A stretch of 64,000 nt of DNA, from contig LUZY01000013.1 of assembly GCA_001603805.1 (NCBI GenBank), forward strand, positions 124,001 to 188,000. The letters run 5' to 3'. Made by a program: the position numbers and the translations under genes. Every line of letters begins with the position of its first letter. The stretch's first letter is position 1. Positions 35,507 through 41,557 of this stretch are shown piece by piece. Under the pieces are notes generated by a model. That model was given only the letters and a program-made list of their open reading frames with translations, did not search any database and was not told where the DNA came from. This DNA comes from Deferribacterales bacterium Deferri_01 (lineage in GTDB: Bacteria; Chrysiogenota; Deferribacteres; Deferribacterales; Geovibrionaceae).

Positions 35507-36679
35507 ATGAAATATCTTGTTCTGTTATGTGACGGAATGAGCGACCATAAAATCGATGAACTGGGCGGTAAAACTGTGATGCAGTACGCCGATACCTCAA
35601 ACTTTGACCTGATGGCTTCAGGCGGGGTATGCGGCTTCATACGCACAGCTCACGGCGGACTTTATCCCGGCAGCGATATATGCAACCTCTCCGTTATGGG
35701 GTATGACCCCTTTAAATACTACACAGGCAGAAGCCCGCTTGAAGCGGGTGCTATGGGCATATCCCTCGGTGAAAAGGATATGGCCTTCCGCTGCAATCTT
35801 GTCACACTCACTGATGACAGGCTTGTTATGGATGACTTCAGCGCTCATCACATATCTGGCGATACTGCAAAAAAAGCAATTGCCGCTCTGAATGAGCTTT
35901 TTAAGGATGACGGCGTTGAATTCTACGCAGGTGTCGGCTATCGCAATATAATGATAATCCGCAATGCGGACTTTGAGCTTAAAACTACTCCTCCGCACGA
36001 TATTATGGGGCAGGAAATAGAAAAATATCTTCCCACTGGCAAAGGTTCTGACAAAATCAATGCTATACTCACTAAGGCATCGGATATTTTTAAAGACAAT
36101 GCTTATGAGCGTGCAAATGCAATATGGCTCTGGGGAGAGGGCGGAAGACCTATGCTCCCTTCCTTTGAGGAAATGTACGGGCTTAAGGGCTCGGTTATCG
36201 CCGCTGTGGATCTTATCAAAGGTATTGGCACATTTGCAGGCATGAATATAATAAACGTTCCCGGTGCAACCGGATTCATAGACACTAACTTTGAAGGCAA
36301 AGCGGAATACGCAGTGAAAGCCTTTAATGACTCCGACTATGTTTTTCTCCATGTGGAAGCTCCTGACGAGGCCGGACACATGGGAAGCATTGAAGAAAAG
36401 GTGCGTGCAGTGGAAAATATAAACAGCAGAATGCTCCCCATACTGCTGGACGGTCTTCGTTCCTTCGGTGATTTCCGTATTCTGGTTACTCCCGATCACC
36501 CGACGCCCGTTAAAATCCGTACCCACGTTAATGAGCCTGTTCCGGCAATTATATACGGCTCAGGCGTGGAAGCCGACTCTAACAAAGCGTATAATGAGTT
36601 TATCAAGCCCTCCTTCTTCATGGAAGAAGGTTACAGAATAGCGCAGTATTTTCTGAAATCTGCCGTTATAAAGGGGTAA
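35507..36679 (+). CDS. apgM: ApgM-type phosphoglycerate mutase family protein; candidate homoserine kinase substitute
   Basis: This 390-residue protein belongs to the alkaline-phosphatase superfamily of archaeal-type cofactor-independent phosphoglycerate mutases (COG3635). The metal-binding DGM near residue 9, the serine nucleophile segment [14 protein letters not shown] near residue 64, the [12 protein letters not shown] block and TPDHPTP near residue 327 are all present. It lies between hom and lysC, 85 bases after hom. No thrB is visible in this operon. A subset of this family is annotated in comparative genomics as a functional analogue of homoserine kinase, and the operon context fits that better than glycolysis. 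Both activities remain possible. Confidence 0.85.
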
Positions 36680-36690
36680 AGGAGGAGAAA

Positions 36691-37905
36691 GTGAGCCTTG
36701 TTGTGATGAAATTCGGTGGAACCAGTGTGGGCTCTATCGAACGAATTAAGAATGTCGCCAGAATTATTGCAAAAAAGAAGGATCAGGGGCATGACGTTGT
36801 TGTGACTTCCTCCGCCATGTCAGGCGAGACGGACAGACTGATCGGTCTTTTAAAGGAAATTGATAAGGACTACGATTTAAGAGAGTACGATGCCCTTGTT
36901 TCCACGGGCGAATCAGCAAGCTGCCCACTCGTTGCTCAGGCGCTTATTTCGATGGGCTATAAGGCTGTTTCTCTTTCAGGGATCCAGATAGGCATGGAAA
37001 CGGATCAGGCGCACTCCAAAGCCCGTATAATGAAAATTGACGGCTCAAGAATTAAAAAAGAACTCGCAGACGGTAAAATCTGCATAGTTGCAGGCTTTCA
37101 GGGCTTTAACCCTGTTACAAATGACATTGCGACACTGGGCAGAGGCGGTTCAGATACCTCTGCAGTGGCAATTGCAGCTGCAATTAAGGCTGATGTCTGC
37201 GAAATATATACAGATGTTGACGGGATATACACCGGCGACCCCAGAATTGTGAGAAAAGCTAAAAAGCTTGATAAAATCAGCTATGACGAAATGCTTGAAC
37301 TTGCCTCCCTCGGCGCAAAGGTGCTTCAGTCCAGAAGCGTTGAGTTCGGCATGAACTATAATGTTGACATAATGGTGCTTTCATCCCTTGAAGACAAACC
37401 CGGAACTTTGGTTACTAAGGAGGACGACGAAATGGAGCAGGTAGTAGTAAGAGGCGTAGCAAGCGATAAAAATCAGGCTAAAATTACAATAAAAAGCGTG
37501 CCGGACAGACCCGGTATCGCTGCAACTATATTCACAAGACTTGCAAAAGAGGCAATAAATGTTGACGTTATAATCCAGAACGTCAGCACGGAAGGAAACA
37601 CTGATCTTTCCTTCACTGTATCTAAAACCGACCTTAGCCGTTCGCTCACGGTTTGCAGAGACACTGCAAAAGAGATAGGAGCGAAGGAGGTTCTGGCGGA
37701 CGAAGACATCGCAAAGGTTTCCATAGTGGGAGTCGGCATGAGAAGTCATGCAGGCGTAGCCGCTAAGATGTTTGAAGTCCTCGCCGCAAACAGCATTAAC
37801 ATACAGATGATTACCACAAGCGAAATAAAGGTATCATGCGTTGTTGATGAAAAATTTGCGGAACTCGCAGTTAGAGTTCTCCACGAGGCTTTTGTAGAGG
37901 ATTAG
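36691..37905 (+). CDS. lysC: Aspartokinase
   Basis: This 404-residue enzyme phosphorylates aspartate, the first step to lysine, threonine, methionine and isoleucine. It has the amino-acid kinase N-terminus ([10 protein letters not shown]), a catalytic domain to ~250 ([13 protein letters not shown] near residue 150; [14 protein letters not shown] near 171) and two C-terminal ACT repeats (~265-400) for feedback inhibition. It starts at GTG 36691 after AGGAGGAGA, 11 bases behind apgM. It is a monofunctional single-chain type like the alpha subunit of Bacillus aspartokinase II; an internal start giving a separate beta subunit is possible (GAGGAC...ATG near 37432). Confidence 0.95.
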
Positions 37906-37906
37906 A

Positions 37907-39484
37907 ATGACTAAAGTCGATATATATGACACCCTCCTGAGGGATGGAACTCAGGCTGAGGATGTCAACTTCACGGTTAAGGATAAGGTAAAGCTCGCTG
38001 AAGCTTTCTGCGATTTTGGAATACGGTTTATAGAAGGCGGATGGCCCGGCTCGAACCCAAGAGATATTGAGTTCTTCAAGGCTATTAAGAAATCTTCTGC
38101 ACCTATTGACTGTATTGCCGCTTTCGGCAGCACCAGAAGAGCAAAAAGAAGCTGCGAGACAGATGAAAACCTTCAGGCTCTCCTTGAGGCAGAGGTTCCT
38201 AACCTGACTATTTTCGGGAAAACATGGGATCTGCACGTTAGAGAGGCTCTGAAGCTTTCTCTGGATGAAAACCTTGATCTTATCCACAGCTCCGTGAGCT
38301 ATCTCAAGAGCAAGGTAGACAGAGTGTTTTATGATGCGGAACATTTCTTTGACGGCTATAAAGCCAACAGGGAATACGCCATAAAGACACTTCTCGCCGC
38401 TAAGGATGCGGGAGCAAACTGCCTTGTTCTCTGTGATACCAACGGCGGAACTATGCCGGACAGCCTGGTGGAGATCATCGAAGATGTTAAAAAACATGTC
38501 GGCGATTATCCGCTGGGCATACACTGCCATAACGACAGTGACTGCGCTGTTGCCAACTCAACCCTTGCGGTTAAGCACGGCATCACGCAGGTTCAGGGAA
38601 CAATGAACGGATACGGTGAAAGGTGCGGGAATGCAAACCTTGCATCGGTTATTCCCAACTTACAGCTTAAATACGGTTTCGAGTGTGTTCCGGCGGAAAA
38701 CCTCAAAAGATTGAGAGTGCTTTCCCGCCTTGTAAATGAACTCGGTAACCTTAAGCATAACATCCATCAGCCATATGTAGGGCGTTCTGCCTTTGCTCAC
38801 AAGGGTGGGGTGCATGTAAGTGCTATTATGAAAAACTCACGCACTTACGAACACATAGAGCCGGAGCAGGTGGGCAATACCCAGCGTGTTCTGGTTTCCG
38901 ACCTTTCAGGCAAAAGCAACCTCATATACAAGGCTAAAGACTTCGGGCTTGATATAGACAGCAATGACCCTGCTATAACCGAAGTTGTAGAAAAGCTGAA
39001 AGAGCTTGAAAACAAAGGCTTCCAGTATGAAGGCGCAGAGGCTTCCTTTGAGCTTCTTCTGCGTAAGGCTATGGGCGGTTTTGAGCCTTTTTTTGACTCT
39101 CTGAATTTCAGAGTTATAGATGAAATGAGAGAGGAAGAGGGCAGCACCATGGCGGAAGCCACTGTGATGATTGAGGTTCAGGGCGAAACAGAACACACGG
39201 CAGCTACCGGTAACGGTCCTGTTAACGCTTTAGACAATGCAATCAGAAAGGCTCTTTCCAGATTTTACCCTAACTTAAACGGCATGACCCTTGCTGATTA
39301 TAAAGTACGCATCCTCACCACCGGAACAGGTACACAGGCTCTTACCAGAGTGCTTATCGAGTCCAAGGATGATACGGACACATGGGGTACTGTCGGAGTT
39401 GCTCACAACATTATTGAGGCGAGCTATCAGGCGCTGATCGACTCCATAGAATATAAACTTCTTAAAGACAGGGAGAATGCGTAA
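37907..39484 (+). CDS. cimA: (R)-citramalate synthase
   Basis: This 525-residue enzyme of the alpha-isopropylmalate/homocitrate synthase family condenses pyruvate and acetyl-CoA to citramalate for isoleucine synthesis. It has the DRE-TIM start [13 protein letters not shown], the HCHND metal site near residue 205, a [12 protein letters not shown] segment and a C-terminal LeuA-type regulatory domain (~385-520). The DGTQAE variant and the long linker fit the CimA type rather than LeuA. It begins one base after lysC and is the last gene of the operon. It links threonine-pathway genes with a threonine-independent route to 2-oxobutanoate. Confidence 0.9.
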
Positions 39485-39489
39485 AACAC

Positions 39490-39517
39490 TTGAAACTTGA
39501 ATTTTTTGCTGTATAAT
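39490..39517 (+). promoter_or_regulatory. Sigma-70 promoter of a predicted small RNA
   Basis: TTGAAA (39490-39495) and a perfect TATAAT (39512-39517) are separated by 16 bases, starting six bases after the cimA stop. The predicted start is near 39524. No start codon with ribosome binding site follows before the terminator. Confidence 0.65.
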
Positions 39518-39521
39518 AGCA

Positions 39522-39623
39522 TTGTTAAGTTAGTAACAAGTAAAAGTTAAATAGAATCTTGCCCGGCTATCTCTATGCTTTATCCCTCCTCCCCCCTTAA
39601 AGCATATAGCCGGGATTTTTTTT
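39522..39623 (+). ncRNA. Predicted ~100-nt small RNA with C-rich terminator loop
   Basis: Between the promoter and the T-run there is a short hairpin (TTGTTA 39522-39527 / TAACAA 39534-39539), a single-stranded A-rich linker, and a long terminator stem-loop. No coding frame with a ribosome binding site is seen. The 15-base loop of the terminator (39583-39597) is almost pure C and U (TCCCTCCTCCCCCC) and would pair with GGAGG-type ribosome binding sites. It could act as an antisense regulator of translation. No known RNA family is recognised. Confidence 0.55.
39562..39623 (+). terminator. Intrinsic terminator with two-part stem
   Basis: CCCGGCTAT (39562-39570) pairs with ATAGCCGGG (39606-39614), and ATGCTTTA (39575-39582) with TAAAGCAT (39598-39605), with a four-base bulge on the 5' side. 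Eight T residues follow (39616-39623). It would also end read-through from cimA. Confidence 0.88.
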
Positions 39624-39719
39624 CTCCGCTTTCAATCAATCCGTGGCAATTTACTCTCTTAGGGTGTATTTTCTTATCATAAGACAATAAAGTGTGATTT
39701 AACTTTAAGGAGGTTTCAA

Positions 39720-40001
39720 ATGGACGAACTTAAAGACTTTTTTTATGCAGGTCTCGGTGCTGCACTTACTGCAAAGGAAAGAATGGAAAAAGACCTTGAA
39801 GAGCTGAAAGAAAAAGGTAAAGGCGGCAAAGAAGAATTTAAACAAAAATATGAGGAAGCTAAAGCTAAAGCCAAAGCTTTTGAAGAAGAATTCGATAAAA
39901 AACTGAAAGAAAAGGTAAAAAATATCCTCTCCGAAATAGGCGTTGCTACCAAGGAGGATTTGGCAGAGCTTAAAAAGCTTATTGAAGAGAAGAATAAGTG
40001 A
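39720..40001 (+). CDS. Phasin-like coiled-coil protein
   Basis: This 93-residue protein is highly charged (Lys/Glu-rich) and consists of one long coiled-coil helix, with a short hydrophobic N-terminus (DFFYAGLGAALTAKE) and a C-terminal segment (IGVATKEDLAELKKLIEE) like that of phasin/PHA regulator-type small proteins. AAGGAGG precedes the ATG. It overlaps the ABC1 kinase gene by four bases, so the two are translationally coupled. In this superfamily such pairs with UbiB-like kinases recur, but no polyhydroxyalkanoate genes are present here, so a PHA granule role is unproven. Confidence 0.75.
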   Translation: MDELKDFFYAGLGAALTAKERMEKDLEELKEKGKGGKEEFKQKYEEAKAKAKAFEEEFDKKLKEKVKNILSEIGVATKEDLAELKKLIEEKNK

Positions 40002-41557
40002 AATCAGGTTTTTTAAGCCTGTATTCCCCGGTGAGAATCTACCGTGTGTTCATGGTTCTTCTCACCGTTTTTCTTATTATAAAGGACAGAAAAAGTTTTC
40101 TGCTGATGAAGCCTCTTAACCCAAAGAGGCTGAAACACTATATTTATGCACTGGGTGCAAGTTTTATCAAGCTGGCACAGGTTCTGGCCACCAGAGCAGA
40201 TTTTTTCACGGAAGACTACCTTGAAGAGCTTCGGGATCTTCATGACGATATCCCGAAAATGAGCGAAAAGGACTTCTGCGCTGTTTATAAAAAAGCCTTT
40301 GGCGAGAAGAAACACTTTACAACATTTCTTGACGCCCCCATTGCCAGTGCATCCATAGGGCAGGTTCACCACGCAGTGCTTACTGACGGAACAGAGGTTG
40401 CCGTAAAACTGAGAAGGCTTAATATAGAGAAGGTTGTGAATGCGGATATCCGTATTTTGAGTTTCTTTAACAGGCTTTTTAAACCTTTGTTCTCTGAATA
40501 TACAAAAAACTCCGTAGAAGCTGTTATCGCTGAATTTACAGATATGATCCGCAAAGAGGTTGATCTCTATACAGAACTTCTTAATCTGAAAAAATTTATA
40601 ACAATGTATCCTGACAGCGGAATCAGATTCCCAAAACCTTATGAAAAATACTGTTCCTCTGATGCTCTTGTGATGAGTTTTGAGCATGGGTACAGATTTG
40701 ATGACAAAAAAGTTCTTGCACGCCTGAATATCAGCATAAAAGACATAATGGGCAAGCTGATTTATTTTTATACGCAACAGATGCTTGTTAAAGGCTTTTT
40801 CCATGCTGATCCGCATCCCGGCAACCTTTTGGTGACAGCGGAAGGGGAGCTTATCCTTCTTGATTTCGGCATGGTAAAAAGAATCAGTGAATACACCAGA
40901 AGATCAATAATAGAGCTTATTAAATCCGCAAATGAAAGGGACTTTGAAACATATGTGCGTGCATGTAAAAAGCTGGGCATTATTGCTGCAGATGCCCCTG
41001 ATGCCTTGCTTCAGGATGCGGCGGAAAGGATGTTTAACATTTTTTCTGATGATACGCTAGATGCAAAAAGTATGCAGGTGCTTGCTTTTGAGGTTCTTAA
41101 CACTGTTAAAGATATGCCGTTTAAGCTTCCGCAGGAGGCTATCTACATAATGCGTGTCAGCTCAATAATAGAAGGGCTTGGGACAACATACATAAGTAAC
41201 TTCAATGGCATAAAGGATATTCTGCCGATTCTGAAAGAAAATCTGCCAAAAGCCCTTGGATTGGATGAACGAATATTTGATCAAATAAAGGGTGAAGTCA
41301 TGGAATTACCCATGACGTTTAAGAAAATCAAGAAAATTATCAACAGCATGAGCGATGATTCTCTTGAAATAAAGCTCTCAAGGGAGAGTATAGACTATAT
41401 AAGAGAACGTTCCCGCATATATTACCGTCCGCTCGCTTATGGTATTCTAACTATGATTACAGGCTTTTTTATTGTGTTTTTGGGTTTTGAACACAGTCCG
41501 CTCATCGGCAGTATTGTATTCGGTGCAGGGCTGGTTAAGGTTATCTTTACTATTTAA
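39998..41557 (+). CDS. ABC1/UbiB-family atypical kinase
   Basis: This 519-residue protein has the ABC1/AarF/UbiB fold: the KxGQ-like element (here SFIKLAQVLATRAD near residue 50), an Ala-rich loop (PIASASIGQVH near residue 115) in place of the glycine loop, the VIB lysine in EVAVKLRR, and the FHADPHPGNL and LLDFGMV catalytic segments near residues 267-293. Two C-terminal hydrophobic helices (~475-515) anchor it in the membrane. Family members support quinone synthesis or lipid homeostasis through ATPase activity. It starts at GTG 39998, overlapping the phasin-like gene. Confidence 0.88.
   Translation: MKSGFLSLYSPVRIYRVFMVLLTVFLIIKDRKSFLLMKPLNPKRLKHYIYALGASFIKLAQVLATRADFFTEDYLEELRDLHDDIPKMSEKDFCAVYKKAFGEKKHFTTFLDAPIASASIGQVHHAVLTDGTEVAVKLRRLNIEKVVNADIRILSFFNRLFKPLFSEYTKNSVEAVIAEFTDMIRKEVDLYTELLNLKKFITMYPDSGIRFPKPYEKYCSSDALVMSFEHGYRFDDKKVLARLNISIKDIMGKLIYFYTQQMLVKGFFHADPHPGNLLVTAEGELILLDFGMVKRISEYTRRSIIELIKSANERDFETYVRACKKLGIIAADAPDALLQDAAERMFNIFSDDTLDAKSMQVLAFEVLNTVKDMPFKLPQEAIYIMRVSSIIEGLGTTYISNFNGIKDILPILKENLPKALGLDERIFDQIKGEVMELPMTFKKIKKIINSMSDDSLEIKLSRESIDYIRERSRIYYRPLAYGILTMITGFFIVFLGFEHSPLIGSIVFGAGLVKVIFTI

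Follow-up and report, generated by a model that had tools for sequence, protein, structure and literature searches.

The cimA locus and its downstream intergenic region

In the 64,000-nt stretch of Deferribacterales DNA analysed here (the window), an aspartate kinase gene precedes that for citramalate synthase (cimA; TIGR00977, 777 bits), which is followed by an intergenic region, by a gene at 39720 that is weakly phasin-like (scoring under the curated cut-offs), and then by a gene for an ABC1/UbiB-type kinase. The intergenic region contains a near-consensus promoter, a short leader and a hairpin that is also an intrinsic terminator (Table 1). As the initial annotation had it, the promoter consists of TTGAAA and TATAAT elements with a 16-nt spacer; it has 11 of 12 consensus matches, and when the 90 nt upstream were dinucleotide-shuffled 200 times, no shuffle attained its score of 11.5 (including a 0.5 bonus for TTG). 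From the −10 box to the end of the hairpin and its eight T residues is ~100 nt. No coding frame with a ribosome-binding site was found among the start codons between promoter and hairpin, in agreement with the earlier claim: apart from TTG (frames of 3 aa and 13 aa), only the ATG at 39575 is present, and this has no ribosome-binding site and opens a 35-aa frame crossing the terminator. The window thus has an intergenic unit with its own promoter and intrinsic terminator, as expected of an sRNA gene, although the promoter is weak in the families f2 and f7 and in some members of f1.

The predicted transcript (39524-39624) folds with −24.2 kcal/mol (z −3.5). The hairpin alone gives −23.2 kcal/mol (z −6.0), with no shuffle being equally good. 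The terminator was initially described as perfect, but its stem is imperfect, having a 4-nt asymmetry on its 5' side. A small 5' hairpin (GUUA/UAAC), likewise described initially, is present but weak, is missing from the centroid structure and is not conserved outside the genus.

Table 1. Positions of the predicted elements of the sRNA gene, numbered from the first nucleotide of the window
Feature	Position	Strand	Remarks
−35 element TTGAAA	39490..39495	+	similar TTGNNN boxes in f1, f3, f5, f8
−10 element TATAAT	39512..39517	+	sequence match
5' leader	39524..39560	+	from a transcription start predicted, not mapped; A/U-rich; kept within genus only
Conserved sRNA core (hairpin, also intrinsic terminator)	39561..39620	+	covariance models R1/R2, 86-87 bits
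Outer stem, 5' side	39562..39569	+	pairs with 39607-39614; 3/8 pairs covary, 5 invariant
Inner stem, 5' side, GCUUU	39577..39581	+	pairs with 39599-39603; one pair C-G to U-A
Unpaired loop	39582..39598	+	17 nt; core CCCUCCUCCCC at 39584-39594
Inner stem, 3' side	39599..39603	+	pairs with 39577-39581
Outer stem, 3' side	39607..39614	+	pairs with 39562-39569
U8 tail of terminator	39616..39623	+	possible Hfq contact

Conservation of the hairpin and of its loop

Across homologues, the hairpin comprises two helices, of 8 and 5 pairs, around a loop of 14-17 nt, and the AUUUUU that follows the stem is invariant in 26 genomes. Both helices covary. On ten sequences the covariation score is 0.287 compared with 0.134 in shuffles, four pairs are changed on both sides, and all 130 of 130 cells are paired, as against 93.5% in shuffles and 23-49% when the partner is slid; on 26 sequences (16 distinct) 99% of cells are paired, in an alignment that is model-fitted and hence biased towards structure. 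Because any terminator has a stem, covariation alone is no proof of a function beyond termination. The informative evidence is the unpaired loop core, which is about as conserved as the stems: variation per site among distinct sequences is 0.12 in the loop core and 0.08-0.15 in the stems, but rises to 0.39 at the edges of the loop and to 0.42-0.60 in the internal loop. The C-rich pyrimidine loop noted initially is therefore a conserved property, CCUCCCC being present in 26 of 26 genomes, and it holds CCUCCU, the anti-Shine-Dalgarno core. Both a covarying conserved structure and a conserved unpaired seed, as looked for in an sRNA, are found.

Distribution in Deferribacterales

Of 39 related genomes searched by BLAST with the intergenic region, 26 have the hairpin, and matches in other genera are limited to it and its immediate flanks. 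Covariance models (R1, then R2, built from 26 sequences) identified exactly one strong copy in every one of these 26 genomes, which come from six Deferribacterales families and include Denitrovibrio acetiphilus and Calditerrivibrio nitroreducens. The model gave no match better than chance in a further 19 genomes of the order, from families f4 and f6, in f9 and f10, which belong to the same class and phylum, or in 334 genomes representing other phyla. A pattern scan over 84,980 species returned 84 places, and among these a clear model score was confined to Deferribacterales records. Weak model matches in f4, f6, f9 and f10, and a second one in genome G003, were rejected as, where inspected, they were mostly plain CCCGG terminators without the loop. 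Plain CCCGG...CCGGGAUUUUU hairpins lacking the C-rich loop (e.g. in L165, L166, L167 and L080) recur as terminators in the phylum.

The proposed check against Rfam was made with release 15: cmscan of the whole window gave no family above its gathering threshold, the hairpin was unmatched at E values up to 10 in a permissive scan of 39000-40200, and permissive scans of six homologous loci matched only one unrelated place. A separate locus (L045, 4616-4713, minus strand) matches Rfam n00280 just under the gathering score (60.1 versus 65.2 bits); n00280 is described as an sRNA of C. difficile located within a helicase gene, and the match is probably conserved coding sequence. No described sRNA of Deferribacterota was found in the literature searched.

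Sequence comparison shows that six families share the hairpin by descent, and it thus extends well outside the strain in which it was proposed. We conclude that this order-wide sRNA gene family, which is absent from Rfam, is real, with its transcription being predicted. The conserved unit is the ~60-nt terminator hairpin alone; the initial proposal of a free-standing RNA is supported by the occurrence in six families, but its ~100-nt length is not what is conserved.

Co-occurrence with Hfq

A Pfam Hfq domain is encoded in all 26 sRNA-bearing genomes and in 0 of 18 tested f4 and f6 members, which lack the sRNA. In these (G014, G016, G021, G023, G028, G029 and G032-G043) every Hfq-domain protein is absent. 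Five outgroup genomes have Hfq and lack the sRNA. In an RpoB tree f4 and f6 fall next to f1, inside the range of the sRNA-bearing families, such that absence of the sRNA from them is best read as loss. Whether f4 and f6 are one lineage or two affects how often this occurred, with 46% of bootstrap trees giving one change; one or two joint losses mean that the co-occurrence is statistically not strong. It supports Hfq dependence, favouring without proving it. The combination expected of an Hfq-dependent sRNA, an Hfq-encoding genome and an RNA with a U-rich terminator tail, is present here.

The sRNA-bearing genomes encode, in addition to a normal Hfq of ~74-84 aa, a protein of ~170 aa with two tandem Hfq-like domains (L419, at G000:C14:38001-39500, and L421), the C-terminal one being canonical and the N-terminal one diverged. 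A response-regulator receiver gene lies in the same stretch as this tandem protein.

Proposed mode of action and comparison with known sRNAs

We consider it likely that the locus is a gene for a small trans-acting regulatory RNA, the functional unit of which would be one hairpin doubling as its own terminator. The RNA is probably Hfq-dependent and, by analogy with studied systems, would most likely switch genes off by placing its C-rich loop on ribosome-binding sites. RNA polymerase would start near 39524 and stop in the U run; Hfq may then bind the U tail, together with the A/U-rich leader where there is one, and present the loop, which would pair with ribosome-binding sites more G-rich than plain GGAGG and so keep the ribosome from entering, blocking translation.

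The statement that C-rich loops of regulatory RNAs block translation is borne out by RepG and NfeR1. RepG of Helicobacter pylori pairs via a C/U-rich terminator loop, and its second stem-loop alone is enough for repression (PMC8295292). The likeness is limited to this placement of the pairing site in the terminator loop: RepG, which has an extra stem-loop at its 5' end, acts on a homopolymeric G run within the leader of tlpB, whereas the Deferribacterales RNA carries CCUCCUCCCC and is found together with Hfq, and no sequence or phylogenetic link between the two is known. The NfeR1 loop motif, CCUCCUCCC, targets ribosome-binding sites and represses translation (PMC10746234); in the NfeR1/alpha-r14 and cuckoo (CcsR) sRNAs of Alphaproteobacteria this anti-Shine-Dalgarno motif is ultraconserved in hairpin loops with variable stems (PMC10746234, PMC3927594). 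The same loop motif occurs in the unrelated Deferribacterales RNA, in which there is only one conserved hairpin, rather than several with CCUCCUCCC loops; this hairpin is the terminator and its stems are conserved. NfeR1, by comparison, does not depend on Hfq and contains three such hairpins within ~123 nt, and the CcsR RNAs are processed from the ccaF1 (DUF1127) transcript. The sibling sRNAs NmsRA and NmsRB of Neisseria meningitidis repress TCA-cycle mRNAs by anti-Shine-Dalgarno motifs with possible Hfq involvement (PMC5362039), and in this resemble the RNA proposed here, but they are sibling genes with two such sites each and have no known sequence in common with the hairpin. Yfr1 of cyanobacteria (54-69 nt) is similarly short, widely kept (phylum-wide) and lost in a few lineages, with one ultraconserved unpaired CU-rich motif (PMC2190773), although this motif, ACUCCUCACAC, lies between two hairpins and not in a terminator loop. 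The analogy with RepG, NfeR1 and NmsR leads us to expect repression of mRNAs with ribosome-binding sites richer in G than GGAGG.

Candidate targets

The proposed complementarity of the loop to ribosome-binding sites is supported by the comparative evidence, but GGAGG pairing alone cannot define targets since GGAGG is the ordinary ribosome-binding site. Exact matches to the perfect loop complement, GGGGAGGAGGG, elsewhere in the genomes of the genus lie inside coding sequences and not at start codons, and were rejected; one of them is in a gene common to the three species of the genus. The frequency of GGGGRGG 4-10 nt before ATG is near control in most genomes and not clearly above it. On comparing about 100 such places from six genomes, only a livF-like gene had clear orthologues with a common GGGGRGG site, and it was discarded as a target because the sequence is fixed by an overlapping upstream Leu-Gly-Glu-Glu frame; one distant GGGGRGG match involves two acyl-CoA-synthetase-like genes.

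Within the window, the aspartate kinase gene lysC, with its GTG start behind AAAGGGGTAAAGGAGGAGAAA (36661-36691), is the best loop pairing partner among 48 genes (−22.8 kcal/mol). As a conserved target it was rejected, the pairing being weaker in most relatives and inconsistent.

The gene sdhB was chosen from candidates in genome G005. Its ribosome-binding site pairs unusually strongly in f1, f3 and f7, and poorly in most Hfq-less genomes; against a background of 52-58 genes it comes out top in three genomes. Its pairing energy falls in the top 10% in five genomes (G000, G005, G003, G017 and G020) and outside it in two others (G025 and G012). Once Shine-Dalgarno strength is regressed out, the former five have residual ranks of 0.23, 0.06, 0.06, 0.05 and 0.04, respectively, and the latter two 0.75 and 0.31. 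The pairing fails in f2 and f8, and much of the signal is a strong Shine-Dalgarno sequence, such that sdhB is at most a candidate target, to be taken as a weak lead.

That the target searches gave no specific mRNA, and that the loop carries the CCUCCU core, would also fit an sRNA with another loop partner, in that the loop might sponge a G-rich sRNA, be bound by a protein or, by mimicking the 3' end of the 16S rRNA, act on translation generally. We regard this as distinctly unlikely, given that the studied C-rich loops of other phyla pair with mRNAs (PMC8295292, PMC10746234, PMC5362039).

Gene neighbourhoods and promoters in relatives

Across the six families the hairpin has at least six different gene neighbourhoods. 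It is found 3' of cimA, co-oriented and within 67-508 nt, in f1 and f7, and 3' of panD in f8; from sequence, the upstream gene is glycosyltransferase-like or another in f3 and thioesterase-like or another in f2; and f5 (G015) has a divergent upstream gene. The arrangement in f1 and f7, and the use of CCCGG...CCGGGAUUUUU stems as terminators elsewhere in the phylum, are what would be expected were the hairpin only the intrinsic terminator of cimA, its sequence being otherwise meaningless; we judge this very improbable, as the hairpin is found away from cimA in f2, f3, f5 and f8, cimA and the hairpin are separated by a near-consensus promoter, and the loop core, conserved like the stems, is unneeded for a terminator.

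Most f1 genomes, as well as f3 and f7, have a convergent gene downstream; in the window genus, which is probably Geovibrio, in f2 (a lipoprotein gene 10-23 nt downstream of the hairpin) and in a single f8 genome the downstream gene is close by on the same strand. The latter arrangement would suit a role of the hairpin as cis-acting leader or attenuator of that gene, either the phasin-like gene or the f2 lipoprotein gene, but such a role is hardly credible in view of the opposite strand of the downstream gene in the other f1 genera, f3 and f7, the location of the phasin-like gene elsewhere in other genera, and the presence of a single conserved structure with no alternative antiterminator.

Promoter-like sequence beats shuffles in most f1 members and in f3, f5 and f8, but in f2, f7 and the f1 genomes G005 and G007 the match is no better than in AT-rich shuffles. 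The best match ends 9-61 nt before the hairpin, and leader length and sequence vary in other families; the 9-nt distance in f5 and, by a weak match, in f2 implies a transcript that would be little more than the hairpin. Because neighbours, downstream strand and leader length differ between families, the element is neither just a cimA terminator nor a leader of the phasin-like gene.

Implications

The trans-acting sRNA proposed here represents a new family of a known kind of regulator, one that would be lineage-defining within a deep-branching phylum. A more far-reaching version, in which it is a terminator-only sRNA (in some families a hairpin of ~55-60 nt) that has been a core, single-copy, Hfq-coupled regulator since the origin of the order, disappeared along with Hfq from two families and has a conserved respiratory regulon, sdhB included, under its control, is speculative and, taken as a whole, rather unlikely. 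With its putative seed inside the terminator's own loop, the layout would be among the simplest possible, and it may provide an independent case of C-rich anti-Shine-Dalgarno loops. The two families from which both the sRNA and Hfq are missing constitute a natural test of Hfq dependence.
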